This document shows positions 4,094 to 57,884 of a DNA stretch of 59,597 nucleotides, piece by piece (the first letter of the stretch is position 1; each line of letters starts with the position of its first letter). Where the stretch lies: the IMG/VR virus record IMGVR_UViG_3300030329_004507, positions 1 to 59,597 of that record; one strand, given 5' to 3'. The notes beneath the pieces are model-generated. The model ran no database searches. It was not told the DNA's origin and worked only from the letters and a program-made list of their open reading frames with translations. The translations under genes and the position numbers were made by a program. Source of the stretch: a virus.

Positions 4094-4346
4094 CTAACTT
4101 CTCCTTCAACTTCTCGATCAACTTCCTTTGTTCATCATCATAACTCATTGAATACCAATAATATAGCATTCCAATTGGTAGTAGAATACCTATCAAAGGT
4201 AAAAACAAGTCTCTGACATCAAAATAAATCAACACCTTGATCAACAATATCATTGCCAACACAAGACCTGCTCCTTTTAACAGCCATTTCAAATTTTTCT
4301 TGCCGTCTTTATAAATTTCTTTCATTATCCAATTCAATCTATTCAT
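4086..4346 (-). CDS. Two-segment membrane protein
   Basis: 86 residues with a charged N-terminus, two hydrophobic segments at about 24-44 and 49-66, and a charged Lys/Glu-rich tail. No family recognised; the size and two segments would fit a holin-like topology, but nothing specific shows it. It overlaps both neighbours by 1-8 bp. Confidence 0.5.
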   Translation of the reverse strand: MNRLNWIMKEIYKDGKKNLKWLLKGAGLVLAMILLIKVLIYFDVRDLFLPLIGILLPIGMLYYWYSMSYDDEQRKLIEKLKEKLDD

Positions 4347-4681
4347 TATACCTTCTCCTTTAATGTATGAATTGGGTCATCTTCATATGGTTCCCAATGA
4401 AGTTCATTAGTCTCTTCTAAATCATACCATTGATCTTCTATTGCTTTATATTCTTCTATCAATTCTGATGGCTCCATATTTTTAAAGCCTTTGAATCCAC
4501 CTTCTAAGATATAGGTTAAAGTATCATAATCACCACACTTGTAATCAGAATAGATGCCATGAATCTCAACCTGTAGACATCTTTCAGCCATTACATAATG
4601 AGTCAATTTCATTGCTCTTTCATCTTCATATAAAAGATCATCGTGCTTATCAAATATAATTTCTTTTAATCTAGTTCCCAT
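4346..4681 (-). CDS. Hypothetical acidic protein
   Basis: 111 residues, soluble, rich in Glu, Asp and Tyr, no motif recognised. Its start touches the stop of the 4681-5145 gene (TAATG-type overlap). Confidence 0.5.
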   Translation of the reverse strand: MGTRLKEIIFDKHDDLLYEDERAMKLTHYVMAERCLQVEIHGIYSDYKCGDYDTLTYILEGGFKGFKNMEPSELIEEYKAIEDQWYDLEETNELHWEPYEDDPIHTLKEKV

Positions 4682-5145
4682 TAGAACGGTATCTCCATAT
4701 CTGTTTCAACCTTTTTATCAGAAGTTTCTTTTTCTTCTTTCTTCCATCTGTATGAGTCACCTGTCCATTCAGGATCTTCATAGTTTTCAAAATGTTGATC
4801 TGTGTCTGAATCCCAATCTTCGTATGGAACACATTCTTCAACCTTTTGAACTCTAGGTTCTCTGCCATACTTTTCATAATCATAATCAGTTTCAATATCA
4901 CTATTGTAATCGTTGGCATAAACTTCTACTGGCTCATCACCGTAGTATCCATCTTGCCATTCAATCTTTTCAATTCCACCGTGTTCTGAAACTGCATCTT
5001 CGGCCTCTTCTTTTGAATTGGCAACCACATCGTATTCAACCCAAGCGGTATAATGTTTTCTAACTCTAAATTTTTGCTTACCGATGTCCTTATGTGGATC
5101 ATCTTTTTTGTAAGTTCCGTCTATTATTTTTATTTCTTCTGTCAT
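4681..5145 (-). CDS. Hypothetical acidic protein, first gene after a promoter
   Basis: 154 residues. Residues about 25-60 (FRVRKHYTAWVEYDVV, then KEEAEDAV) resemble short phage proteins with a beta-strand followed by a helix starting at an EEA motif, also seen in the protein at 10788-10955. The rest is strongly acidic. A strong AAGGAGTTGAAATG ribosome site and the promoter at 5165-5192 precede it. Confidence 0.55.
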   Translation of the reverse strand: MTEEIKIIDGTYKKDDPHKDIGKQKFRVRKHYTAWVEYDVVANSKEEAEDAVSEHGGIEKIEWQDGYYGDEPVEVYANDYNSDIETDYDYEKYGREPRVQKVEECVPYEDWDSDTDQHFENYEDPEWTGDSYRWKKEEKETSDKKVETDMEIPF

Positions 5146-5164
5146 TTCAACTCCTTATTTTTTA

Positions 5165-5192
5165 ATTTTAACATGGATTTATTCTCTGTCAA
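5165..5192 (-). promoter_or_regulatory. Sigma70-like promoter of the repeated early type
   Basis: Minus strand: TTGACA, 16 bp ending ATCCATGT, then TAAAAT. The spacer end and the following AAGGAGTTGAAA site are shared with promoters at 9602, 12208, 13546 and 14977. The -35 overlaps the end of the 5179-5346 gene. Confidence 0.75.
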
Positions 5193-5346
5193 CCAACCCA
5201 AAGGTATAAACTGTATCAAGTATGATTCCGATAGCAAAGAATAATCCTACACATTGTAGAATCAAATCATCTGTTTTCCATAAACCATAACAACCACCTG
5301 CAAAGAATATTCTTGAAAAAACTAAGAACCAATATCTATTTTCCAT
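5179..5346 (-). CDS. 55-residue membrane protein
   Basis: Starts MENRYWFLVFSRIF at an ATG overlapping the upstream stop (TAATG) and has two hydrophobic segments (about 5-20 and 31-49). No family recognised. Too short for many gene finders, but it fills a gap exactly between two genes and its overlap fits the block's pattern. Confidence 0.55.
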   Translation of the reverse strand: MENRYWFLVFSRIFFAGGCYGLWKTDDLILQCVGLFFAIGIILDTVYTFGLVDRE

Positions 5347-5654
5347 TATCCACATTCTCCTTCTTTGGCAACTCTATCCATCGCTTCTTGCCAATTAATT
5401 TTGATACCATATGCTGATGGTTCATCACAACCTTCTACAGGATAGAATTCATAAAATACTCTCCATGGGTCAATGTCTTCAGCATAAGCATCTTCAACCA
5501 TTGCTCTGATTCTTTTTTGTTCTGATATTCCGTTGCTCCAATATCCGTGATCATCTGAATATTGGAATGTCCAATCATGCTCTTTTAATTCTTTTTCAAG
5601 AGCCATCAAAATGAATTGTGGTTTTAGTTTTCTTTCTTTAACTGTTTCAACCAT
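5346..5654 (-). CDS. Hypothetical protein
   Basis: 102 residues when started at MVETVKER, whose ATG overlaps the upstream stop (TAATG); three extra residues upstream are less likely. Acidic, Trp- and Tyr-rich, with no recognised motif. Confidence 0.5.
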   Translation of the reverse strand: MVETVKERKLKPQFILMALEKELKEHDWTFQYSDDHGYWSNGISEQKRIRAMVEDAYAEDIDPWRVFYEFYPVEGCDEPSAYGIKINWQEAMDRVAKEGECG

Positions 5655-17958: not shown

Positions 17959-18837
17959 TCATTTACCACAGGACATAGCACAAACAAAATTACATTTATT
18001 TGTTTGCCACGACTCTTTTATTTGAGGGAAATCTTTTATTTCAACAAAAGGCAAAGAAGGCAAATCAAATCCTTGATAACAACACGGACCTATTCTTCCT
18101 CGAGCATCAATATAAACTGTTGATCGTGTTTCGTGTTCACAGTCTATTTCATACACTTTCTCTTCAGGAAAAAAGTTTTCATGAGTCTTTTTATACCTAT
18201 CAATCCCTGCAGGCACATCATATGGAGTTGGTTGTCTAGAACCATCTGCAGGTAATATCCAGTGTGTTATCTTGCCTTCTTTACTCAATGCTGGTCCATA
18301 ATTCCTGCTATGATCTTCTACAAGAAACTCTTTGAATCCTAATTGTTTTGATAATTGTTTTGCTTGTTCTTGCTGATGGACATTATGTTTAAATGTTATA
18401 AACTTCCATGTTGCTTTACCTCCAGCATCAATAAACCATTTTACTCTATCCATAAGTTTATTCCATTCAACATCTTGTCTATATAAATGGTTTGTATCTT
18501 CAAGTCCGTCTATACTAAAAACTACTTCTACATTGTTTTTGGCTAAAGATTGCCAAGTGTTCTGTGTTCCTATACTACCGTTTGTTGTTATTGAAGTACG
18601 ACAGTCGGTCATATTTGCTAGTTCAAGTATATTAGGATTCATCATAGGGTCACCTAAGTTGCCATTGAAATATACAAAAGTTCTGTTTGGAAATTGTAAT
18701 AAACACTCTTGGAATTTGTCTATGCTTAAATGTAATTCAGGATAAACTCCTTCTACTTTGTATCCATAGAGACTTCTAGGACACAATGGACATCTTGCAT
18801 TACAATAGGTGCTGGCCTCTACATGAATAGTTTTCAT
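17959..18837 (-). CDS. Radical SAM protein with SPASM-like C-terminus
   Basis: 292 residues from MKTIHVEAS. YCNARCPLC gives the CX3CX2C cluster motif that binds the radical SAM [4Fe-4S]. The C-terminus has CEHE, GPCCYQG and NKCNFVCAMSC, a set of Cys fitting an auxiliary cluster. It shares FSIDGLEDTNHLYR with the proteins at 29996 and 56973, so these are paralogues. Peptide or protein modification is typical of SPASM enzymes. The longer ORF start is rejected because a late promoter lies just upstream of this ATG. Confidence 0.8.
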   Translation of the reverse strand: MKTIHVEASTYCNARCPLCPRSLYGYKVEGVYPELHLSIDKFQECLLQFPNRTFVYFNGNLGDPMMNPNILELANMTDCRTSITTNGSIGTQNTWQSLAKNNVEVVFSIDGLEDTNHLYRQDVEWNKLMDRVKWFIDAGGKATWKFITFKHNVHQQEQAKQLSKQLGFKEFLVEDHSRNYGPALSKEGKITHWILPADGSRQPTPYDVPAGIDRYKKTHENFFPEEKVYEIDCEHETRSTVYIDARGRIGPCCYQGFDLPSLPFVEIKDFPQIKESWQTNKCNFVCAMSCGK

Positions 18838-18842
18838 ACTAC

Positions 18843-18850
18843 TATTTAAC
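18843..18850 (-). promoter_or_regulatory. T4-type late promoter
   Basis: GTTAAATA on the minus strand, exactly 5 nt before the ATG at 18837; predicted leaderless transcript. Confidence 0.65.
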
Positions 18851-18856
18851 GGCCAC

Positions 18857-18888
18857 AAAAAAAGGGCGATAGTTGCCTACCGCCCCTT
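18857..18888 (-). terminator. Rho-independent terminator (minus strand)
   Basis: On the minus strand, AAGGGGCG pairs with CGCCCTT and is followed by a run of seven T. It ends the 18902-19216 transcript just before the next gene's late promoter. Confidence 0.8.
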
Positions 18889-29995: not shown

Positions 29996-31039
29996 ATGCC
30001 TAGCAACTATATAACGGTTGATACCATCAACCATATCAATGCCGAACTATCTAATTACTGCAACGCGGCTTGTCCAATGTGTGCAAGGTTTGATGCAGAA
30101 CAAAATTTGGTAAAAGAAATTACCAATAACAAGCATACTACACTAGATGATATCAAAAATAAAATTGGTAATAGAGTTATAAAAAATCTTATAACTTTTA
30201 GGTCTTGTGGCAACGTTGGTGATGGCACTATGAATCCAGAATGTGAACAGATATATGATTATGTAAAATCTGTTAATCCTACAACCAATTTATCTATTAA
30301 TACAAACGGTGGGGCAAGGAACACAGACTTCTATAAGGAACTGGCCAAAATTGGAGTAAAGGTAATTTTTTCAATTGACGGATTAGAGGACACTAATCAT
30401 CTGTATAGAAGAAATGTTAAATGGAACAAACTAATTGAAAATGTTAGTAGTTTCATCAGTATGGGTGGCAAAGCATATTGGGACTTTCTAGTATTCAAAC
30501 ATAATCAACATCAAATTGAAACTGCTGAAAAGTTAAGCAAACAATTAGGTTTTACATTGTTTAATAAAAAGACCACAACCAGATGGAACGACTTTGACAA
30601 GGATGGCAACTGGTTACAGAGAGATAAAATAGAAATAGATGATTACACATTAGAAAAACCACTAGAGAAAACTATTAAACACGTAACTAGGCAAAGAGTC
30701 GTTAAGAGTTTTCCTATAAAAGATATTGATAACAAAAGAGATGTCAAAGTACAAAAGGTAACCACTAATAAAATTCGTTGTCATTCATTTGCAAACAATA
30801 ATATAGAAATATTTTTACACGCAAATGGTAATGTAAGTCCTTGCTGTTGGTTGGGAGATTTAAAAATACACGAATCAAAAAACATTATCAAAGACTATGC
30901 AAGTGTTAATATACGTCATACACCATTACAACAAATACTAGACGGATATTATTTCAACGAGATATGGAAGGGCGTACAAGGACAAGTTCAAAATTATAAA
31001 TTAACTACTTGTCAAAATGTATGTAGATACAATGGGTAA
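29996..31039 (+). CDS. Radical SAM protein with SPASM-like C-terminus
   Basis: 347 residues. NYCNAACPMC carries the CX3CX2C motif at about 23-30. FSIDGLEDTNHLYRRNVKW is shared with the 17959 and 56973 products. The C-terminus has GNVSPCCWLGD and a final CQNVC, fitting an auxiliary cluster. A 60-residue insert with many Lys separates the halves. Likely an enzyme that modifies a peptide or protein, coupled (8-bp overlap) to the next radical SAM gene. Confidence 0.8.
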   Translation: MPSNYITVDTINHINAELSNYCNAACPMCARFDAEQNLVKEITNNKHTTLDDIKNKIGNRVIKNLITFRSCGNVGDGTMNPECEQIYDYVKSVNPTTNLSINTNGGARNTDFYKELAKIGVKVIFSIDGLEDTNHLYRRNVKWNKLIENVSSFISMGGKAYWDFLVFKHNQHQIETAEKLSKQLGFTLFNKKTTTRWNDFDKDGNWLQRDKIEIDDYTLEKPLEKTIKHVTRQRVVKSFPIKDIDNKRDVKVQKVTTNKIRCHSFANNNIEIFLHANGNVSPCCWLGDLKIHESKNIIKDYASVNIRHTPLQQILDGYYFNEIWKGVQGQVQNYKLTTCQNVCRYNG

Positions 31040-32312
31040 AAGTTATTGTGCTAAACTGTGGAATCATCAGTACATTCACATGAGCGGAAGTTTTAGATTG
31101 TGTTGTGCTACAATGGATAACATAGAAGATGGTAATGGCAATCGTCTACATATCAACAATAATTCTCTTGAAAATACTTGGAACTCTAATCAAATAAAAG
31201 ATATTAGATTAAAAATGATTAAGGGTGAAGATATTTCTTCTTGTTCTAAATGTGTTGAACAAGAATCTAGAGGTTATAAGTCTATGCGTGAATCACAAGA
31301 CATGGAGAAAAATTTTGCCTTAACCAAAGAAGATGGTGCAGTAGATGTTATGCCCACAACAATGGAATTACACTTTGGTAATCTTTGTAATTTAAAATGC
31401 AAAATGTGTGGACAACAATATTCAAATCAAATAGGAAAAGAACTGCTTGAAATAGGAAAAGATGATAATGATTTTCTAAATTGGATTTACAAAGAAAGTG
31501 GTAATGTTAATATATGGACTAACAATTTATCTGTAGAATATAAATGGTTTCAAAATAAAAAAATTAAAAGTAAATTGTTTGAATACATTTCTCAACATAT
31601 TAATAGTTTAACAGTTATAGGAGGAGAACCTACTGTGATTCCAGAATTCTGGGAACTGTTTGAATACTTAGAACAAAAGGATACTTTAAAAAACTTATCT
31701 ATTACCCTTACAACAAACCTTACTAATGTAAACCCTAAACTAACAAACTGGCTACCCAAACTAAAAAGTTGGAAGGTGTGGGCGAGTGTTGATGGTATTG
31801 ATAAACGAACAGAGTACATAAGATATCCTAGTAACTTTAAAAAAGTTTGTGAGAATCTAGAGTTTTACAAAAACCTATTAGGAACAAACGGTAACATTAC
31901 ATTAAGTCCAGCAATACAATTATTAAACATAGATCAGTTAGATGAAATTCTAATATGGTGGCTTAAATTTTGTGATGGAAAACTTGGAAAACAATTAGAT
32001 GTTTCTTGGATGGCTCAAGTTTGGTATCCTACAATATGCAATTATGATATAGCACCAAAATCTTATAAGATAAAAGTTGCTAATAAATTAAAACAATCAT
32101 TAACTTTGTTTAACCAGTATGATCAAATAAAGACCTTTTATAAAAACCAAATTGATAACTTATCTCAAGATGTTTGTAACTTCACAGATAGAAAACACTT
32201 TCAAAAAGCATTTATTAGATATAACGATACGCAAGATAAACACAGAAATAATACTACTTGGAGAGAGTTATTGCCTGAACTAGAATTAGCATTGACAGAT
32301 AGTATATCATAA
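31032..32312 (+). CDS. Radical SAM protein, twitch-type with N-terminal Cys domain
   Basis: 426 residues from MGKSYCAKLWNHQYIH, five codons into the longer ORF and overlapping the previous stop. An N-terminal domain with FRLCCATMDN and CSKCVEQE is followed by NLCNLKCKMCG (CX3CX2C) near residue 117. VIGGEPTVIPEFWEL matches the radical SAM GGEP motif. This N-terminal SPASM/twitch-first order is known in some viral and marine radical SAM proteins. Substrate unknown. Confidence 0.75.
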   Translation: MGKSYCAKLWNHQYIHMSGSFRLCCATMDNIEDGNGNRLHINNNSLENTWNSNQIKDIRLKMIKGEDISSCSKCVEQESRGYKSMRESQDMEKNFALTKEDGAVDVMPTTMELHFGNLCNLKCKMCGQQYSNQIGKELLEIGKDDNDFLNWIYKESGNVNIWTNNLSVEYKWFQNKKIKSKLFEYISQHINSLTVIGGEPTVIPEFWELFEYLEQKDTLKNLSITLTTNLTNVNPKLTNWLPKLKSWKVWASVDGIDKRTEYIRYPSNFKKVCENLEFYKNLLGTNGNITLSPAIQLLNIDQLDEILIWWLKFCDGKLGKQLDVSWMAQVWYPTICNYDIAPKSYKIKVANKLKQSLTLFNQYDQIKTFYKNQIDNLSQDVCNFTDRKHFQKAFIRYNDTQDKHRNNTTWRELLPELELALTDSIS

Positions 32313-40536: not shown

Positions 40537-40740
40537 CTACTTTCCTATCTTCTTTGATCTACCTAAAGGTAATTTTTGTTCTTTGACGAATACCTCCCCG
40601 TTCTTCGTCATCCACTCCATACTTACCATCTTGGCTTTAGAAGACCCCTGAAATGACTTTACTGCCTTTTTCCAGGAGAGTGCTTCGATCTCTTTTACTT
40701 CTGTCCCATCATCAAATTTAAATTTTCTCATTTTTGGCAT
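40537..40740 (-). CDS. Small basic protein, first gene of the rplL operon
   Basis: 67 residues from MPKMRKFKFDDG. The longer ORF starts upstream of the -10 region and is rejected; with -10 at 40748-40753 the mRNA start lies on or beside this ATG. A short beta-strand N-terminus and Lys-rich C-terminus; no family recognised. Confidence 0.5.
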   Translation of the reverse strand: MPKMRKFKFDDGTEVKEIEALSWKKAVKSFQGSSKAKMVSMEWMTKNGEVFVKEQKLPLGRSKKIGK

Positions 40741-40747
40741 ATATTCT

Positions 40748-40791
40748 AATTTAGCATAAGATTGACAAAAGGTCAACTATATGCTTAAATA
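40748..40791. promoter_or_regulatory. Overlapping divergent promoters for rplL operon and tmRNA
   Basis: Minus strand: TTGACC (40771-40776), 17 bp, TAAATT. Plus strand: TTGACA (40762-40767), 18 bp, TAAATA (40786-40791), which is also the end of a late-promoter box CTTAAATA (40784-40791). The two -35 hexamers are only 3 bp apart and face through each other, so polymerase can hold only one at a time. Confidence 0.7.
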
Positions 40792-40796
40792 TATTT

Positions 40797-41099
40797 GCAT
40801 ACGTTGAAGCATTTGAAATAAACGTTGCGGACGTCGGGGCAGTACCGACCACCTCCACCAATTTATTACTTGGTGGCTTATGTAATCCCTTCCGGGGGTG
40901 AACTAGGATCGACGGACGTGTAAAGAAATGTGGAGTTTGCCCAGTTGGTACGAGGTAACGGCCAGTTTTTAAATGCAAACACAAGAGCATTAGGATTTGC
41001 TGACTTAACAGTTGGTATGTCTGAATTGAGATTAGCGGCGTAATAACTGACTAATTTCTGGGGTTTGGCCCACCTCGCAACAGAACGGGCCACCTCATA
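40797..41099 (+). ncRNA. ssrA: Circularly permuted two-piece tmRNA
   Basis: Acceptor piece first: T-arm GTCGG-7nt-CCGAC (40833-40849), then CACCTCC, A and CCA (40850-40860). After a 33-nt spacer the coding piece starts GGGGGTG (40894), which pairs over all 7 bp with CACCTCC, followed by AACTAGGATCGACGG. Long-range helix: CATTT (40810) and ACGT (40822) pair with AAATG (40926) and ACGT (40916). The tag frame starts with Ala codon GCA at 40975, encodes 22 residues beginning ANTRALGFAD and ending SELRLAA, and stops TAATAA at 41041. A pseudoknot stem GGCCC/GGGCC follows. tmRNA rescues stalled ribosomes; the permuted form is typical of Alphaproteobacteria. Confidence 0.93.
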
Positions 41100-48182: not shown

Positions 48183-48397
48183 AAAAAAGAATACACGTTA
48201 ACCAACACAAAATTAGAAGTAATAAAAAACATAACTTAAATGAACCTGTAATTACAGTAAAAACTTCTAAATCAAATGACTATGCTCACGAAGTAGAAAT
48301 AAAAGGACCTAGTAAAGTAATTTATAGTCCAGACAAACCATTAAGTTGTGGTGCAAAAGTGTGGATTGAAACAGAAGCAGAGGTTAATTTAAAATGA
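48179..48397 (+). CDS. Conserved small protein (MKKRIHVNQHKIR family)
   Basis: 72 residues. MKKRIHVNQHKIRSNKK, then PVITVKTSKSN and YSPDKPLSCGAKVWIET matches a short family found in phages and bacteria. Function unknown. Overlaps the next gene by 4 bp. Confidence 0.6.
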   Translation: MKKRIHVNQHKIRSNKKHNLNEPVITVKTSKSNDYAHEVEIKGPSKVIYSPDKPLSCGAKVWIETEAEVNLK

Positions 48398-48882
48398 AAC
48401 AAATTGACAACTTTCTAGATAAAAAAGATTTTGAAGACTTAAAAACTGTTCTACTTGATCCTACGTTTCCATGGGCACTGAATCATGGAGTAAGTTATCC
48501 ATATGATGGACACATTCAATTTACACATACCATATACAATGACAACGTATTTCAAAGCACTTGGACATTAGGGGGACTAGATATTTTTAAAGAAAAACTA
48601 AACATACAATCATTGGTAAGAGCAAAAGTTAATTTACTACCAAAGAATGAAAAAATAATTGAGCATGAAGCACATATTGATATACCTGATCCAAAGGACG
48701 GACTTATGACTGCAATTTTGTATATGAATACTAATAATGGATATACAAAATTTGAAAGTGGAGAAAAAGTTGATAGTGTGGAAAATAGGTTAGTAATCTT
48801 TGATGCTAAAACAAAACACAGTGGCAGTACAAATTCATGTGATGCTCCATATAGATTAGTGTTTAACTTGAATTATTTCTAA
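48394..48882 (+). CDS. 2OG-Fe(II) oxygenase (prolyl 4-hydroxylase-like)
   Basis: 162 residues. HEAHIDIPD gives an HxD motif near residue 90 and KHSGSTNSCDAPYRLVFNL the distal His and Arg. The size fits a minimal double-stranded beta-helix oxygenase. Hydroxylates an unknown substrate. Confidence 0.65.
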   Translation: MKQIDNFLDKKDFEDLKTVLLDPTFPWALNHGVSYPYDGHIQFTHTIYNDNVFQSTWTLGGLDIFKEKLNIQSLVRAKVNLLPKNEKIIEHEAHIDIPDPKDGLMTAILYMNTNNGYTKFESGEKVDSVENRLVIFDAKTKHSGSTNSCDAPYRLVFNLNYF

Positions 48883-49179: not shown

Positions 49180-50457
49180 ATGGAAGTTACTTTATTTCTT
49201 AGTGGTATTTTGTTAGGTGTCTTTGCAGGATTGATGCCAGGAATTGGCGTCTTTACGACTCTTATTTTAATCTATCCATTACTATTAGATCTAACAATAA
49301 GTCAGTTATTAATTCTATACATACCTCTTTTAAGTATAAGTCAGTATCTCGGAAGTGTACCGGCTTTGTATTTTAAAATCCCAGGAGAGGCAACTAGTTT
49401 TATTGCAACAGAATACGGACACGATTTGTTCCGTAAAGGACATCATGACTTAATACCACTTACTGCAATAGGAAGTTTTGTTGCCACAATAGTTTCTGCT
49501 TTTATAATTGCTTGTTTACCTTTTATAATTGAAAACGTCTTTTACAGTTTTATAAGCACAAAATTTATATTTTTCTTAATTCTACTGACTGGAGCCTGTT
49601 TAGTAGCAACTTCTAAAAACAATTGGTTACTTACAGTTGGATTAATGATTTTTGGATTAGTACTAGGCAACGTAGGATTTAATGCATCAAATGGAAGATT
49701 CTTTGGAACATTTGGAAACGAATGGTTATCATATGGCATACCAATTTTTCCTTTGATAGTTGGAATGTATGTTATTCCTAATGTACTAAATTTAAATGCT
49801 AGTTCAATCACATTTAAACACATCGATTCTGCATACACAGGTTCAATACTAAAATTAAAAAAGTATTTCAGTAAGATGTTAAATGGATCATTTATAGGAG
49901 TGGTTACTGGTTTTGTTCCAATAATAGGAAAAATTGTAGGAGTATCTGTATCAAGAGCATTATATAAATCTTCAGACAAAGATAGTGTAGTTGTTGCAGA
50001 AAGTTCTAACAATTCAAGCATCTTTACTGCTATGATTCCTTTGTTTTTATTTGGTGTACCTATAACAATGGGAGAAATACTCATCTTTAATATTGCAGAA
50101 ACAAATTATTATGATCTAAACAGTGAATTTAAAAATTTATTACAGACACCGTTATTACCAATTGTTATATTAGTTTCAGGATTGTTTGGTTTGATATTAT
50201 CATGGCCGTTGGCAAGATATTGTAGTTTAGTTTTTAAAATGCCTACACCTTTATTAAAAACATTTTTACTAACAATAGTAATATTAAGTTTATTTTATCT
50301 TGGTCTTAAAAATAATATGCTATGGTACTATGTGTTAGTACTATTATGTTTTATACCAATTGGTTATGTATTAAGAAATCACGATGTTATACCATTGATT
50401 TTCTCATTTATCTTTGCTAAAATCAGTATGACAATCTTCGAAAGGATATTAATATGA
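49180..50457 (+). CDS. tctA: Tripartite tricarboxylate transporter permease, TctA family
   Basis: 425 residues, somewhat shorter than the usual 500. About 10 to 12 membrane segments. GVFAGLMPGIG near residue 13, GSVPALYFKIPGEATSF with a following YGHDLFRKG, and SSNNSSIFTAMIPLFLFGVPITMGE match the three TctA signature regions. It would move a carboxylate or similar solute across the inner membrane. AAGGA precedes the ATG and TATAAT lies at 49166-49171. It heads an operon with a binding protein; no TctB gene is present. Confidence 0.85.
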   Translation: MEVTLFLSGILLGVFAGLMPGIGVFTTLILIYPLLLDLTISQLLILYIPLLSISQYLGSVPALYFKIPGEATSFIATEYGHDLFRKGHHDLIPLTAIGSFVATIVSAFIIACLPFIIENVFYSFISTKFIFFLILLTGACLVATSKNNWLLTVGLMIFGLVLGNVGFNASNGRFFGTFGNEWLSYGIPIFPLIVGMYVIPNVLNLNASSITFKHIDSAYTGSILKLKKYFSKMLNGSFIGVVTGFVPIIGKIVGVSVSRALYKSSDKDSVVVAESSNNSSIFTAMIPLFLFGVPITMGEILIFNIAETNYYDLNSEFKNLLQTPLLPIVILVSGLFGLILSWPLARYCSLVFKMPTPLLKTFLLTIVILSLFYLGLKNNMLWYYVLVLLCFIPIGYVLRNHDVIPLIFSFIFAKISMTIFERILI

Positions 50458-51200
50458 AATTAATTAAACTGGCTTTGTTATTTGCAATTACTTTTATTTT
50501 ACCAGCAACTGCATTAGATATAATTGCACCTAGTAGTGTAGGAGGCACAACACATAAATTTGCTATGATCTTACAAAAAGATTTACAAGATAAAGGTTTT
50601 GACGTGAATCTAATTGTAGCAGGTAATTGTGTGTTAGGAAGAAAGGAATGGCAAGACTCCAAGTCAGCAATCTTTATTACAACAGAAGCATCAAACTCTG
50701 TTCCTGAATGCACTGTAGAAATTACAAAAGAAAACTATGCTTTAAATCTTTTTACTGCAGGATGGGTTATAGTATCGCACACTGATTCACTTGGAGAAAG
50801 AATGGGTGTAGTAAGTTATATGAAACAAACTGTGGAAGACTTGGATGTAAAACTTGTACCTTATAAAAATACAACAGAAATCAAAGCGGCATTTTTAGCA
50901 GGAGAAATAGACTCTGGGTTTTTAACAACAGGAAGAGCAAGTGAAATAAAAGAAAAATTTGTATTAATAAACACAATGTCATCTGATAAAGGTGCATTCG
51001 CAAATTGGAAGAACAACAATTTAACATTAAACTATTATGTGTTGGGTAAAAATATTGACACTAAAATTATTAATGCTATGAAAAACAATGCAAAAATAAT
51101 TGATATTGCTGACAAAAAACAAATGCATCCAGTAGAACTTAACACTAAAGAAGAACAAGTAGAATATCTATTAAGGAATCAAGATAAATGGACCAAATAA
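50454..51200 (+). CDS. TctC-like periplasmic binding protein
   Basis: 248 residues. MKLIKLALLFAITFILPATA is a Sec signal peptide. SSVGGTTHKFAMILQKDLQDKGFDV near the start of the mature part and VPYKNTTEIKAAFLAGEIDSGF later parallel TctC proteins (GGxxDxxAR.., VPYKGxxxAxxALxxGxVD). It is shorter than usual (about 300). Coupled to tctA by a 4-bp overlap, which supports the pair. It may capture the solute for the permease. Confidence 0.6.
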   Translation: MKLIKLALLFAITFILPATALDIIAPSSVGGTTHKFAMILQKDLQDKGFDVNLIVAGNCVLGRKEWQDSKSAIFITTEASNSVPECTVEITKENYALNLFTAGWVIVSHTDSLGERMGVVSYMKQTVEDLDVKLVPYKNTTEIKAAFLAGEIDSGFLTTGRASEIKEKFVLINTMSSDKGAFANWKNNNLTLNYYVLGKNIDTKIINAMKNNAKIIDIADKKQMHPVELNTKEEQVEYLLRNQDKWTK

Positions 51201-51874
51201 ACTCACATACTTTTAAAGACTTTTCTGGAGGATATAATCCAAAGACTGGATTTTTTATCAGCAGAACAGTGCTTGACGGAGATTATTATAAAGATGTTGA
51301 TAGAATTGTAGAAGGCTGGGTTAATATGTATGCTGATCCTAATCTTCAGCACACTGTTAAAGGTGCAGGAAAATTTAATGTTGTATCTCTTAAGAGTTAT
51401 GACGGCACCAATGAAAGAATGGATTCCCCACCTGAACCAGAAGTTCCTAATAATTTTAAATACACACCTGCATATTATTCTAGTCCAATTCTTAAAAAGG
51501 CTGTTGATTGGTTTCAATGTGAAAAAACAAGAGTAAGAGTTTTTAGACAACTACCTGGAAAAAATTTAGAACTTCATCATGACTTTGATAATGAAAGACA
51601 AAACTTTAGTGATGAGAATATAATGGTTAGAGTAATGATGCCTTTGACAGATAGAGATGCTTATCTTAACCTTGCAAACGAAAACAGTGATATAATGGTT
51701 AAACTTGTAAAAGGACAGTTTGCTATTATTAATGTAGATACTGTATGGCATGGTTCAATAACATTTGATAATGAACCTAGAGATATGCTGAATATGATCG
51801 TAAAATGGAACTCTTGGTTGCAGGAGTTGACTAGGTCCAAACCATTAGTCGATATTGAAAGGATAAAACTATAA
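51188..51874 (+). CDS. 2OG-Fe(II) oxygenase, Asp/Asn hydroxylase-like
   Basis: 228 residues. LELHHDFDNERQ (HxD) near residue 128 and VWHGSITFDNEPRDML near 192-207 (distal His and Arg) match aspartyl/asparaginyl hydroxylase-like dioxygenases. Overlaps the binding-protein gene by 13 bp. Fits a small-molecule or peptide hydroxylation step in the operon. Confidence 0.7.
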   Translation: MDQINSHTFKDFSGGYNPKTGFFISRTVLDGDYYKDVDRIVEGWVNMYADPNLQHTVKGAGKFNVVSLKSYDGTNERMDSPPEPEVPNNFKYTPAYYSSPILKKAVDWFQCEKTRVRVFRQLPGKNLELHHDFDNERQNFSDENIMVRVMMPLTDRDAYLNLANENSDIMVKLVKGQFAIINVDTVWHGSITFDNEPRDMLNMIVKWNSWLQELTRSKPLVDIERIKL

Positions 51875-52512
51875 TGCAATTTTTTGAAGAATGGAAACAA
51901 AAAAGTAATTGGCATTTTGATTGGTTCAAAAAAGAACACGATCCATATTTCTCACGAACAATTTGCACACTTAATGGTAATTGGGATCCAAATATTAAAA
52001 TAAAAGAAGTACTTACGAACGATGCATATAGAACAGATGGGCACAAAAAAGTATATAAAAATGCAAATATTGATTACGAAAATCTTTACGTAGAAGGAAT
52101 GTACGATAAAGATTTTAATAAAGATTATCAAAAAATTATTGATGCAATAGGAATAGGCAATCCTCGAACGTTAATACACATACAAATTCCAGGACAGATG
52201 CATCCAATTCATATGGATCTTGCTTATGGTGGAGGCAAGTGGGACTATCTAGGAGAGAACAAAGAAGACAAACTAGTTAGAGTTTTTATTATGTTGGCTG
52301 ATTGGTGCCCAGGCCAAATAATCCTAATGGGCAATGAACATATTGTAAAATGGAAAAAAGGTGATGTAATCTATTTTAGATGGCAAGATGTTCCACATGG
52401 CACTTGTAATTTTGGACACGATGATAGACCAATGATGTTTATCACAGGAGAACTAACAGATAAATTTCAAAAACTTTTAGACAGTAAGGAGAAACAAATA
52501 ATAAACATATGA
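51874..52512 (+). CDS. 2OG-Fe(II) oxygenase (paralogue group A)
   Basis: 212 residues. MHPIHMDLAYG carries HxD near residue 111-113 and GDVIYFRWQDVPHGTCNFGHDDRPMMFI, given here in parts, the distal His and Arg. It aligns with the 53596 and 719 products, so these are a paralogue group. ATG overlaps the previous stop. Confidence 0.7.
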   Translation: MQFFEEWKQKSNWHFDWFKKEHDPYFSRTICTLNGNWDPNIKIKEVLTNDAYRTDGHKKVYKNANIDYENLYVEGMYDKDFNKDYQKIIDAIGIGNPRTLIHIQIPGQMHPIHMDLAYGGGKWDYLGENKEDKLVRVFIMLADWCPGQIILMGNEHIVKWKKGDVIYFRWQDVPHGTCNFGHDDRPMMFITGELTDKFQKLLDSKEKQIINI

Positions 52513-53603
52513 TAAAATTTATACCAACAACTAGACTATACGACGATGTCGGAGAGCAGTACTTTGATCTTGTTAAAAAATTATACAAAACTGCTGACAA
52601 TCATTTTGAATCAGAATGGACAGAAAAAGTAGAAACACTTTTGGCAAAACTTTGTCAAAGAAAATATGCATTTCTAACTACAAGTGGTACAATGGGCATT
52701 CATATAATGTTATTGGCCGCTGGAGTACAACCAGGAGATAAAGTAATTTCAACAAGTTATTCTTGTCCAGCATCCGTGATGCCTGTTAATGCCATAGGAG
52801 CAAAATCTATTTTCTATGATGTTAATAAATTTGGATCCCAAGAAGTTACAAACATTAAAGACGAAGCAAAAGCAATAGTGGTTACAGGACTGTATGGTGA
52901 TGCAAGTGATATGGATAAGATTGATCATCCAATGGTGCTACACGATTCAGCACAAAACTTTTGTGGCACATACAATAATAAACCTTCGCCTTCATATGGT
53001 GCAATGAGTATATTAAGTTTCAATGAGAATAAAAACTGTCCAATCTTTGGAACCTACGGTGCTGTATTATGTGATGACGATAATCTTGCTGAAGCAATTA
53101 AATTAATGAGAAAGAATGGATACAAAAATAGAGAAGTAGGTATTACACATAGAGGTATTGGTGCACAACCACACGAAGACAAAGCATTACAAATATATTG
53201 TTCATTGCAACATTTAGATAGATGGCAGGCAAGAAGAAAACAAATTCATGACTATCTTACTGAAGAATTAACAAAACTAAATGTAACTGTTAGGCCAACA
53301 CCAGATTACAATAGTGTAACAAGTTATCATAAATTTGCTATTTTTGTAAACGATAAAAGAGAATTTAGAGATAAAATTAAAGAACACGGTGTTGAATGCC
53401 AAGTACACTACACAAACAACTTTGCAAAATCATCTTTAATATCAGATAACCCAAGAGATATGTACTACACTGACAAGTATGTACAACACGCACTTACTAT
53501 TCCAAGTAGTCCATGGTTAACTGACGCTGAATGTGAGACTGTAATTGAAAAAATAAAACTAGTAATAAACAAAAACGATCAAGGAGTAATGATAGATGGC
53601 TAA
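52509..53603 (+). CDS. DegT/DnrJ/EryC1/StrS-type PLP aminotransferase
   Basis: 364 residues. SGTMGIHIML (PLP phosphate region), GDKVISTSYSCPASVM, VLHDSAQNFCG (Asp holding the pyridine N) and SFNENKNCPIFGTYGA with the probable PLP Lys match the family, which makes amino sugars and amino-containing antibiotics. Length is normal. It probably aminates a keto-sugar or related product. 4-bp overlaps on both sides. Confidence 0.8.
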   Translation: MIKFIPTTRLYDDVGEQYFDLVKKLYKTADNHFESEWTEKVETLLAKLCQRKYAFLTTSGTMGIHIMLLAAGVQPGDKVISTSYSCPASVMPVNAIGAKSIFYDVNKFGSQEVTNIKDEAKAIVVTGLYGDASDMDKIDHPMVLHDSAQNFCGTYNNKPSPSYGAMSILSFNENKNCPIFGTYGAVLCDDDNLAEAIKLMRKNGYKNREVGITHRGIGAQPHEDKALQIYCSLQHLDRWQARRKQIHDYLTEELTKLNVTVRPTPDYNSVTSYHKFAIFVNDKREFRDKIKEHGVECQVHYTNNFAKSSLISDNPRDMYYTDKYVQHALTIPSSPWLTDAECETVIEKIKLVINKNDQGVMIDG

Positions 53604-54303
53604 AGATAACCTACATTGGTTTGATTACGGAGAAACATTATGGAACGAAAGACGTAAAGCAAGTGAATGGCATTTTGATCCAGAAGTTAAATCAGAACCA
53701 AAAGATAATGTTAATATAAACTTTATTAAATTTAGAGGAGACTGGAAACAAGAGTTAGAACAAACAAAGTTTGAAGAAGACGCACCAATGGACCTTTCTC
53801 AGTATTTGTTAAGAATTGGAATACAAGAACACGTCAACTTAGGTATTGATACAACAAAAATTTATGGTAAGAGAGCAACTGTTACTCCAGACATACATAA
53901 AAAAATAACAAAAATAATAGATACTTTTCAATTAGAAAAACCTTATGCTCAAATAATGTATCAAAAACCAGGCAATATGCATACCTTACACATTGATGCA
54001 ATATGTCACGACAACTTTGGCAGAAATAAAGTAACTTCAATAGACGAAGTTAACTTTGATGATACAAGGTCAAGAGTGTTTGTTGCTTTAGAAGACTGGC
54101 AATGGGGACAATTTATGATGATGGGTAATCATCAATGGGTACAATGGAAAGCAGGTGATGTTATGTGGTTTAAATGGCAAGACATACCTCACGCAACAGC
54201 CAACGCAGGACACCGTGCAAGACCTATGTTAAAAATAACAGGTAAAACTACACCTGAATTTGAAGCATTACTTAAAGAAGACGGAAAAGTTTTCAATGTA
54301 TGA
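53596..54303 (+). CDS. 2OG-Fe(II) oxygenase (paralogue group A)
   Basis: 235 residues. HTLHIDAI (HxD) near residue 130 and GDVMWFKWQDIPHATAN with RARPMLKITG near 193-220 match the 51874 product. It has a longer N-terminus. Substrate unknown. Confidence 0.7.
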   Translation: MAKDNLHWFDYGETLWNERRKASEWHFDPEVKSEPKDNVNINFIKFRGDWKQELEQTKFEEDAPMDLSQYLLRIGIQEHVNLGIDTTKIYGKRATVTPDIHKKITKIIDTFQLEKPYAQIMYQKPGNMHTLHIDAICHDNFGRNKVTSIDEVNFDDTRSRVFVALEDWQWGQFMMMGNHQWVQWKAGDVMWFKWQDIPHATANAGHRARPMLKITGKTTPEFEALLKEDGKVFNV

Positions 54304-55403
54304 TAACACCGTTAACAAAAAAACTATTTTTACACGAGTACCAAAGTCCTTATTACAAAGTTAAAGATACGTTTCTTTATAGTAAAGTAGGAGCAGTAAA
54401 ATACTGTAAAGAAATTGGTTGGGAGTGGCCAAGTTTTCATGTCTGGGATCAATCTCAGAAATTTCATAGACCAACAAAAACATTTGAAGAATCAATAAAA
54501 ACACAATGCGAAATTGTAACTGACTGTTATCGTAAAGTACGATTGTTCTACAGTGGCGGAAGAGACAGTAGTTTAATATTACACAGTTTATTAAAAAATA
54601 AAAGTCGTTTAGATGAAATTGCTATCTATAGAAGATTTCCTGGAGTAATTGATAATACTAGTAATGAGTTTGATAGATTTAATGTTTTAGAAGTTCTTAA
54701 AAATATTTTACAACAATACAATGCTAAAATACCAATTAAATTTTATGACCTTTTACCAGAACACTTTAACTATTATTCTAAAAATTTAGATAAGTTATAT
54801 TTTGATTACAGTGATCTTGATTTTTTTACTAACAATGTACATACACTTGCAGAATGTTTTCCTACAATTTTAGAAAATGACTTTATTAATATTTTAGGCC
54901 ATGCTATTCCTAATGTAAATGATAACAACGAATTTTACTGGGTAGATACAGATTTTAATTTATCTCAACCTGATCCATACACTATGAACTTTTTTATTGA
55001 TCATAGAAATACAGACCTTGCTGTCAATCTAGCATACGAAGTATATGATTATCAAAAACAATCTAAAAATCCTAGATCAATTAATCAATATGGCAGTGGT
55101 CCTGATAGTAGTTTCAAACCAATTAAAGAACGTTTAAACTTTCCAAAGAACGGTACTGCTTTAGATAATGATTGGGGAGCCTCTGGTGCTACCACAAATG
55201 TTTTTAGATGGGTATTGGAGAAAAAAATTATTGCACATATTGCCAATGCTCTACAATCTGATATTGGTACAGAATCATATGCCAACTTTATAGGATTCTA
55301 CGAAGAGTTTGAAAAAAAGTATTATTCTTATTTCCATGACAATAGCATTTACACCTACTGGATTGGCTCTATAAGTGAAAGTCACAAATTACTTGATACA
55401 TAA
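54300..55403 (+). CDS. PP-loop ATP pyrophosphatase-like protein
   Basis: 367 residues. RLFYSGGRDSSLILHSLLK at about 82-100 is the SGGxDSS loop of N-type ATP pyrophosphatases, used to activate a carbonyl or carboxylate with ATP (amide, thiol or amidine making). The rest is not recognised. Last gene of the operon; overlaps the oxygenase by 4 bp. Confidence 0.75.
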   Translation: MITPLTKKLFLHEYQSPYYKVKDTFLYSKVGAVKYCKEIGWEWPSFHVWDQSQKFHRPTKTFEESIKTQCEIVTDCYRKVRLFYSGGRDSSLILHSLLKNKSRLDEIAIYRRFPGVIDNTSNEFDRFNVLEVLKNILQQYNAKIPIKFYDLLPEHFNYYSKNLDKLYFDYSDLDFFTNNVHTLAECFPTILENDFINILGHAIPNVNDNNEFYWVDTDFNLSQPDPYTMNFFIDHRNTDLAVNLAYEVYDYQKQSKNPRSINQYGSGPDSSFKPIKERLNFPKNGTALDNDWGASGATTNVFRWVLEKKIIAHIANALQSDIGTESYANFIGFYEEFEKKYYSYFHDNSIYTYWIGSISESHKLLDT

Positions 55404-56972: not shown

Positions 56973-57884
56973 ATGCTAGACAATGTTAAAGAAATCCATA
57001 TAGAACCAACGAGTTTATGTAATGCTGATTGCCCAATGTGTGCTAGAAACATCAACGGCAAAGGACTTAATCCTTACATAACATTAAAAAGTTTACCTGC
57101 TAAATGGTTTGAAGAGAACATTAAACCTGAACAAATTAAACAATTAAACAAAATATTCTTTTGTGGTAATGTAGGAGATCCTGCATCAGCACCTGAACTA
57201 ATACAAATTGCACAATATTTTAAAAAGCACAATCCAAACATTATTGTTGGTCTCAATAGTAATGGCGGATTAAAAACAAAAGATTGGTGGAAACGATTAG
57301 GCGAAGTACTACAAGGAGAGTTAGACTATTGTGTTTTTAGCATTGACGGATTAGAAGATACTAATCACATTTACAGAAGAAATGTTAAGTGGAATAAGAT
57401 TATGGAGAATGCTATGTCCTTTATATCTACTGGAGCAAGAGCACATTGGGATATGTTAGTCTTTGAACATAACAAGCATCAAGTAGAAGAATCAAAAGAA
57501 TTAGCAAAAGAAATAGGATTCAGTTGGTTTCGTGCTAAAGAAACAGATAGATGGGATACCTACACATCAAATTTAGGAATATTGCCTGCAAGTGATTATC
57601 AACCACCCTCTTATGGCCGAGCAATTGAATGCGAAAAAGACAGAGACTCAAGTGTATATTTAGATTACACAGGCAAATATTGGCCTTGCTGTCATATGGC
57701 AGAAGCATATCTTAATAAAATAGGACTTGAACTACACAGTGATATTAGAGATTACAACAATAAAGAATTGTTTAAAGAATACAAAGTTCGTTTAACAACA
57801 GAAACACCTTTTTATATTTGTCGTAGAGCCTGCGGAACACAAGGTAAACGATCACAATGGAAAACTGAGGAACAATTAAGATAA
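56973..57884 (+). CDS. Radical SAM protein with SPASM-like C-terminus
   Basis: 303 residues. LCNADCPMC is the CX3CX2C motif at about 16-23. FSIDGLEDTNHIYRRNVKW is shared with 17959 and 29996. The C-terminus has YWPCCHM and ICRRACG for an auxiliary cluster. Coupled to the SGNH-like gene (TAATG). Confidence 0.8.
   Translation: MLDNVKEIHIEPTSLCNADCPMCARNINGKGLNPYITLKSLPAKWFEENIKPEQIKQLNKIFFCGNVGDPASAPELIQIAQYFKKHNPNIIVGLNSNGGLKTKDWWKRLGEVLQGELDYCVFSIDGLEDTNHIYRRNVKWNKIMENAMSFISTGARAHWDMLVFEHNKHQVEESKELAKEIGFSWFRAKETDRWDTYTSNLGILPASDYQPPSYGRAIECEKDRDSSVYLDYTGKYWPCCHMAEAYLNKIGLELHSDIRDYNNKELFKEYKVRLTTETPFYICRRACGTQGKRSQWKTEEQLR

Follow-up and report, generated by a model that had tools for sequence, protein, structure and literature searches.

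What could a phage gain from a solute permease that is encoded together with a secreted binding protein, three putative oxygenases, an aminotransferase and an ATP-dependent enzyme? The question is raised by seven overlapping genes in the IMG/VR virus record IMGVR_UViG_3300030329_004507, of which positions 1 to 59,597 were analysed (59,597 nucleotides, henceforth referred to as the window). The permease belongs to the TctA family and the binding protein is of the TctC type, both components of tripartite tricarboxylate transporter (TTT) systems. The reading preferred here, with a probability of about one half, is that the pair makes up a viral TTT importer with two components, which brings in an organic carboxylate and is coupled to a conjugation step that uses ATP; the import direction, the carboxylate and the shared pathway are what we infer from the evidence below.

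A viral TctA permease and its TctC-type partner

The TctA family membership, which an initial annotation had read from permease signatures in the sequence, was confirmed by a match of the 49180 product to PF01970 (E 6e-50, 170.5 bits with a cut-off of 28.9, profile positions 3-416 of 423). Alignments demonstrated that the C-terminal 70-90 residues of cellular TctA are missing from the viral protein. The G...G...G..PG motifs of transmembrane segments (TM) 1 and 7 are present, with G9, G13, G17, P20 and G21, and G240, G244, P247 and G250, invariant in a ten-sequence alignment. Sequence searches turned up no TctA relative of solved structure.

A direct search of viral contigs returned a single contig (L001), with a TctA 70% identical to that of the window, and no TctA match was obtained in the isolate-phage collection. 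An initial scan of genomes, for which two sequences served as queries, gave no matches. Single-protein searches of the viral contigs with the window TctC, PP-loop and oxygenase sequences were also empty because these families diverge too fast, a difficulty that was overcome by motif searching. A first degenerate DNA pattern, derived from the permease, recovered five loci (L015, L017, L018, L020 and L021). Since their TctAs shared a feature absent from cellular TctAs, a second pattern, NN...P....GxPI, was designed and detected 112 stretches in IMG/VR viral contigs. A TctA open reading frame (ORF) was identified by hidden Markov model search in nearly every retrieved locus, giving about 105 viral TctA loci, or 68 after near-copies were removed at 90%. 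TctA-type permeases, initially regarded as uncommon in phages, are therefore well represented in environmental virus data. With one extra constraint, the motif occurred in only 8 stretches among 84,980 cellular species genomes, 3 of which were TctA.

The viral TctAs were 419-469 aa long, compared to mostly at least 497 aa for cellular TctAs. At the signature site, cellular TctAs read NNA...GxP[PGA] and lack the glutamate of the viral GxPI..(S)E; Glu at GxP+5 was present in 57 of the 62 viral TctAs and in none of the 37 cellular ones. This Glu was not part of the search pattern, whereas the Ile after GxP was selected by the pattern and is hence not a discovery. When a tree was built from 63 viral and 37 cellular TctAs, the two sets were split by one branch with SH-aLRT (approximate likelihood ratio test) support of 100, the tree being a quick build with long branches from which archaeal TctAs were left out. 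When 299 Pseudomonadota genomes were searched with the viral TctA profile, cellular TctAs scored no higher than 257 bits and the sole 447-bit match lay on a virus-like contig; a few viral TctAs score no better with this profile than cellular TctAs do. Judged by sequence, the viral proteins form a virus-specific TctA subfamily that is shorter, carries GxPI..(S)E and occupies its own side of a supported branch.

Viral-type TctA was also observed on contigs in reference bacterial bins, namely L133 and L131/L135 (Rhodobacteraceae Water_Bin34), and these bins probably contain phage contigs. L133 (NHCU01000021.1), a contig of 12 kb from a metagenome bin, has its viral-type TctA flanked by genes of the window's phage and is therefore virus-like. 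Separately, L019, a 168 kb contig with a viral label, carries a TctA gene of bacterial length and, after it, a DctP-like gene.

A homologous predicted secreted protein adjoins viral TctA (family alignment n=51). The window member, the 50454 product, gave no confident library match when searched alone, Pfam TctC (PF03401) included; among the 51 relatives, 9 match PF03401 at E<0.1, with that of L017 above the cut-off. Comparison of the viral family with cellular TctC by hhalign gave a probability of 99.2% over nearly the full length. An AlphaFold2 model of the 50454 product reached a confidence score (pLDDT) of 88.5, and its 15 best Foldseek matches in the PDB were all Bug/TctC proteins, TphC, BugD, MatC and Bug27 among them (best E 8e-12). 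The viral TctC profile also recovers cellular TctC genes beside tctA (e.g. G249:C92, G252:C1 and G353:C1). The binding protein proposed in the initial annotation was thus upheld by profile and fold, having been missed by Pfam TctC alone, and the 50454 product is best described, from sequence and predicted structure, as a divergent TctC. Sub-threshold matches to toxin-domain and phosphonate-binding families in Pfam and to methylaspartate mutase in NCBIfam were dropped in favour of the Bug fold.

The domain-2 motif [VI]PYxGS...GxxD is kept in the family (V in 38, Y in 40, S in 39 and the final D in 44 of 51) and reads VPYKNT...GEID in the window. Viral TctCs have added cysteines, of which the window protein lacks two together, at positions 107 and 173; this joint absence is what pairing of those cysteines would predict. 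Binding proteins of other types were also seen near viral TctA. Four are of the DctP type, known from tripartite ATP-independent periplasmic (TRAP) systems, and seemingly lack a signal peptide (L068:11574-12512, L033:13149-14231, L053:8356-9321 and L086:3904-4842); in L110 a Bmp/PnrA-type protein (4299-5360) takes the place of the DctP type.

TctB was absent. A PF07331 profile search found none in 54 viral records, including the whole 84,111-base record of the window, in agreement with the initial reading that no TctB gene was visible. Because the PF07331 search matches weakly in many control genomes, small membrane ORFs were inspected too, and no recurring small multi-TM or multi-helix ORF was found beside viral TctA. 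Of the cellular systems used for comparison (n=8), all had TctB annotated save one, where a small gene without a name occupies that position.

Enzymes encoded beside the putative importer

Gene neighbourhoods were counted in the 30 non-redundant loci that had 2.5 kb or more of flank on both sides. TctC was encoded in 29 loci, a PP-loop enzyme in 17 and an ATP-grasp-like enzyme in 11; one or the other was present in 28 and both in none. In 14 loci the PP-loop gene was no more than 30 nt away from TctA/TctC. A 2-oxoglutarate (2OG)-type oxygenase was found in 20 and a DegT aminotransferase in 4. The suggestion that an amino sugar, amidine or surface glycan is made was not borne out by these counts, DegT being present in just 4 loci while the constant partner is the PP-loop or ATP-grasp enzyme. 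For the suggestion that import is followed by chemistry, the support came from association: 28-29 of the 30 loci encode TctC and an ATP-dependent enzyme together with TctA.

The PP-loop type is scattered over many TctA lineages. The ATP-grasp-like type, with an Asp-hydroxylase-like protein, is a single lineage of 16 in which TctC is mostly on the opposite strand and the genes are located among tail-fibre genes, with glycosyltransferase-like and radical S-adenosylmethionine (radical-SAM) genes. A divergent third lineage (L018/L020) encodes, in a row, TctA, TctC, a porin (PF13609), a hexapeptide transferase and an AMP-forming carboxylate ligase. The phage Gram-negative porin of L018 (2783-3955), sharing an operon with viral TctA and TctC, raises the possibility of a complete outer-to-inner membrane uptake route. 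Tail genes are carried by several viral relatives. Distances among TctAs correlated with those among TctCs (Spearman 0.43, 0 of 2000 shuffles as high), shared phage ancestry not being removed from this value.

In L021 and L133 the cassette lies between the flanking genes of the window with a different order and oxygenase number; L021, at the same genomic position, reads TctA-TctC-PP-loop-2OG-DegT. Because the flanks are shared while order and oxygenase number differ, the gene maps indicate a modular cassette at a fixed site, not a fixed operon. Of the expectation that relatives would conserve the gene order, the recurrence of gene content held and the order, as in L021, proved to be shuffled.

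The seven ORFs of the window are listed in Table 1.

Table 1 Features of the TctA-TctC cassette in the window.
Feature	Position	Strand	Basis
Viral-type TctA permease, 425 aa, ~11 hydropathy peaks	49180..50457	+	PF01970, alignments, hydropathy
Viral signature, TctA codons 277-299: NNSSIFTAMIPLFLFGVPITMGE	50008..50076	+	GxPI..(S)E
TctC/Bug-type periplasmic binding protein, 248 aa, hydrophobic signal-peptide-like N-terminus	50454..51200	+	Profile comparison, AlphaFold2, Foldseek
Putative Fe(II)/2OG oxygenase 1, 228 aa, HxD...H	51188..51874	+	Triad aligned with 13 relatives
Putative Fe(II)/2OG oxygenase 2, 212 aa, paralogue of 53596 product (38% identity)	51874..52512	+	
DegT/DnrJ/EryC1-type pyridoxal phosphate (PLP) aminotransferase, 364 aa, catalytic Lys175	52509..53603	+	PF01041
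Putative Fe(II)/2OG oxygenase 3, 235 aa, H132/D134/H199	53596..54303	+	
PP-loop ATP-dependent enzyme, 367 aa, SGGRDSS residues 85-91 (54552-54572)	54300..55403	+	Alignment, Foldseek

The PP-loop family alignment (28 rows) has an invariant second G and D in SGGxDS, and the SGGRDSS loop picked out initially sits in a core that resembles, by Foldseek, the PP-loop ATP pyrophosphatases LarE, NAD synthetase and MnmA; the model (pLDDT 66.9) is reliable only in part, with low confidence outside the core. No full-length match to the viral family was found in 299 cellular genomes except on one virus-like contig, and the alignments place the 54300 product in a virus-specific PP-loop family encoded beside viral TctA/TctC. 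Asparagine-synthetase-like proteins (GATase_7 plus Asn_synthase) are encoded beside the viral PP-loop enzyme in two loci (L048:5887-7137 and L123:4427-5740). A link between them and the PP-loop family was rejected when profile comparison failed (Prob 0.2), and for that reason the theme of carboxylate activation is drawn from the enzyme class.

The DegT assignment made from PLP motifs was verified by PF01041 (E 8.7e-50, 170.4 bits with a cut-off of 19.8), with the lysine K175 in SFNENK and D146 in HDSAQ; solved relatives include WbpE and QdtB. The HxD...H motifs noted in three genes were likewise substantiated, the triad being invariant in 14 aligned sequences that include all three window candidates, none of which matched the Pfam or NCBIfam oxygenase models.

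The phage record and the layout of the cassette

All seven ORFs lie on the + strand between 49180 and 55403, and each overlaps the next by 1-13 nt. The overlaps are 4 nt (ATGA) at 50454/50457, 13 nt at 51188/51200, 1 nt at 51874/51874, 4 nt at 52509/52512, 8 nt at 53596/53603 and 4 nt at 54300/54303, so that all six junctions agree with the reading of one operon. Promoter and terminator scans gave signals no higher than shuffles. The cassette is bordered by small genes on one side and an endolysin-like gene on the other, with no tail fibres adjoining. Upstream, a gene at 48394-48882 that is kept in L021 matches PHROG 274 ('DNA endonuclease V') and has a weak match, below the cut-off, to the 2OG oxygenase family PF13640; the PHROG label is possibly a misannotation. 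A PADLOC defence-family search returned no relevant match, and a defence-system reading of the cassette was rejected on that basis.

The record is a virus contig of 84,111 bases with matches to ribonucleotide reductase, DNA ligase, virion, tail-spike, endolysin and homing-endonuclease genes. Its NrdA is nearest to those of Pelagibacter phage Mosig (69%) and Synechococcus phages. Given these matches, the record most likely derives from a T4-like marine phage. A permuted alphaproteobacterial-type transfer-messenger RNA (tmRNA) gene (window 40713-41094; Rfam RF01849, 107.8 bits) fits a SAR11-like host; tmRNA-type genes are known in marine phages and may persist after a host change (PMC9004378). 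At least four radical-SAM genes are scattered over the window (17959-18858, 29996-31039, 31017-32312 and 56973-57884), three of them sharing a PHROG 21308 match. Translations from the rest of this phage record (L003:8103-12447, L003:17086-18519 and L004:2445-3251) include ClpX-, DnaK-, Hsp20-, ClpS-, SufB- and KdsA-like proteins, a gene set that seems unusually host-like by sequence.

Proposed function and comparison with known systems

In the proposed importer, the secreted TctC-type protein would capture a periplasmic organic anion, most likely a carboxylate, and pass it to TctA, which would work without TctB; import would be driven by an ion gradient, by analogy with cellular TTT systems. 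Known TctC ligands are mostly carboxylates, mostly with two carboxylates or similar groups (PMC5812351). A cytoplasmic ATP-dependent enzyme, the PP-loop protein in the window or the ATP-grasp-like protein in the other large lineage, would activate the carboxylate and join it to a partner, and the accessory oxygenases and DegT aminotransferase may tailor it. Activation of carboxylates with ATP is a property of the asparagine-synthetase type seen in L048 and L123, and it is common among PP-loop, ATP-grasp and AMP-forming enzymes. Import followed by conjugation is suggested because the last three enzyme classes swap repeatedly beside a carboxylate-type importer. Tailoring enzymes differ among lineages, and the products therefore probably differ as well.

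Several observations weigh against this proposal. The domain-1 pincer PFxAGGxxD is degraded (PSSVGGTTH in the window), its Asp being present in 8 of 51 and the second Gly/Ser in 51 of 51 family members, and because this carboxylate pincer is degraded the ligand may be unusual. TctB was essential where tested in cells, in Comamonas TpiBA (PMC5812351). In the second lineage, ATP-grasp was assigned from a motif and from weak profile matches. The correlation between TctA and PP-loop distances is weak (0.22, P 0.004, shared phage ancestry not removed), and genes in the variable regions of phages can be neighbours by chance.

If the neighbourhood were incidental, the pair might simply feed a common acid (citrate, 2-oxoglutarate or a dicarboxylate) into host central metabolism, with enzyme genes that merely co-occupy a hypervariable region. 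TTT systems usually import acids of central metabolism (PMC5812351), and Kyanoviridae such as Mosig have oxygenase, aminotransferase and radical-SAM clusters without TctA. Plain auxiliary uptake is nevertheless rather unlikely, as a PP-loop or ATP-grasp-like gene, never both, accompanies 28 of 30 loci, often overlapping TctA/TctC, and the association recurs across deeply split TctA lineages. The setting of the ATP-grasp lineage among tail-fibre, glycosyltransferase-like and radical-SAM genes would suit a pathway in which the imported or recycled molecule is used to modify virion proteins, the bases of phage DNA or glycans of the cell surface; in other phages, bases or glycans are modified by enzymes of these classes. 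This explanation is considered unlikely, given that the window cassette is placed away from tail fibres, that no hypermodification family was matched in library searches, and that such pathways need no periplasmic binding protein.

It is quite improbable that the TctA/TctC pair imports no nutrient and instead serves to export a product, to keep rival phages from entering or to change the passage of DNA. The missing TctB and the lost pincer residues of TctC would be compatible with such a role, as would the archaeal TctA-like protein that is essential for transformation (PMC10133366), but a secreted TctC-type protein with an intact predicted fold is nearly always retained, and the defence-family search was negative. 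Contamination by cellular genes in mislabelled contigs, for which the bacterial-type TctA of L019 is a precedent, is barely credible for this cassette: the window has the phage replication, virion and lysis genes and the Mosig-like NrdA described above, several relatives carry tail genes, and the motif is nearly absent from the cellular species genomes.

The importer coupled to conjugation can be extended to a broader, decidedly tentative proposal: aquatic phages may possess their own TctB-less TctA-TctC lineage, importing a specific environmental or host-released carboxylate that a virus-specific PP-loop or ATP-grasp-like enzyme conjugates, with ATP, into a compound exclusive to infected cells. 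As a rule, a transport gene carried by a phage encodes one component of a host system. With a virus-restricted binding protein, a permease and a fixed class of ATP enzyme in dozens of divergent phage contigs, infected cells would gain their own uptake and chemistry, and the partner binding protein offers a way to learn what the virus-specific enzyme families act on.

The TctA-TctC and ATP-enzyme pairing was seen almost only in viruses, and the open-licence papers searched contain no description, as a unit, of the viral clade of TctA, the TctC that accompanies it or the enzyme association. In the parts of the sources seen, SUP05 virus contigs have a tctA domain hit and a 2OG oxygenase, role unknown (eLife 2014, PMC4164917), and tricarboxylate-transport genes occur beside viral norB/nirK (PMC8115048); these single sightings in marine virus contigs are domain hits or passing mention, and those parts name no TctC partner, clade or enzyme association. 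The tctA-type genes concerned are possibly members of the viral TctA clade. Pelagibacter phage Mosig EXVC030M (MT647606, 60-71 kb), a related T4-like marine phage, has close-packed oxygenase, DegT-type, radical-SAM and other tailoring enzymes, with no TctA/TctC annotated. The viral PP-loop protein shares the SGGxDS loop and Rossmann-like core of LarE, NAD synthetase, MnmA and carbapenam synthetase but constitutes a separate virus-associated family.

Archaeal stand-alone TctA (arCOG04469, e.g. HVO_0611) is likewise thought to function without TctB (PMC5898192). Unlike viral TctA, it is mostly encoded without TctC, and it is absent from the TctA tree. The closest parallel is TctCBA (TC 2.A.80; Salmonella TctCBA, Bordetella BctCBA and Comamonas TpiBA with TphC), in which a TctA permease and a TctC/Bug-fold protein are also encoded side by side. 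Compared to these, the viral system lacks TctB, its TctA lacks the C-terminal 70-90 residues and carries GxPI..(S)E, its TctC has a degraded pincer and added Cys, enzymes are encoded in the same operon, and the clade is restricted to viruses. For the TTT class as a whole, the viral pair offers a naturally occurring case in which to ask whether a TctA and a TctC can function together in the absence of TctB.

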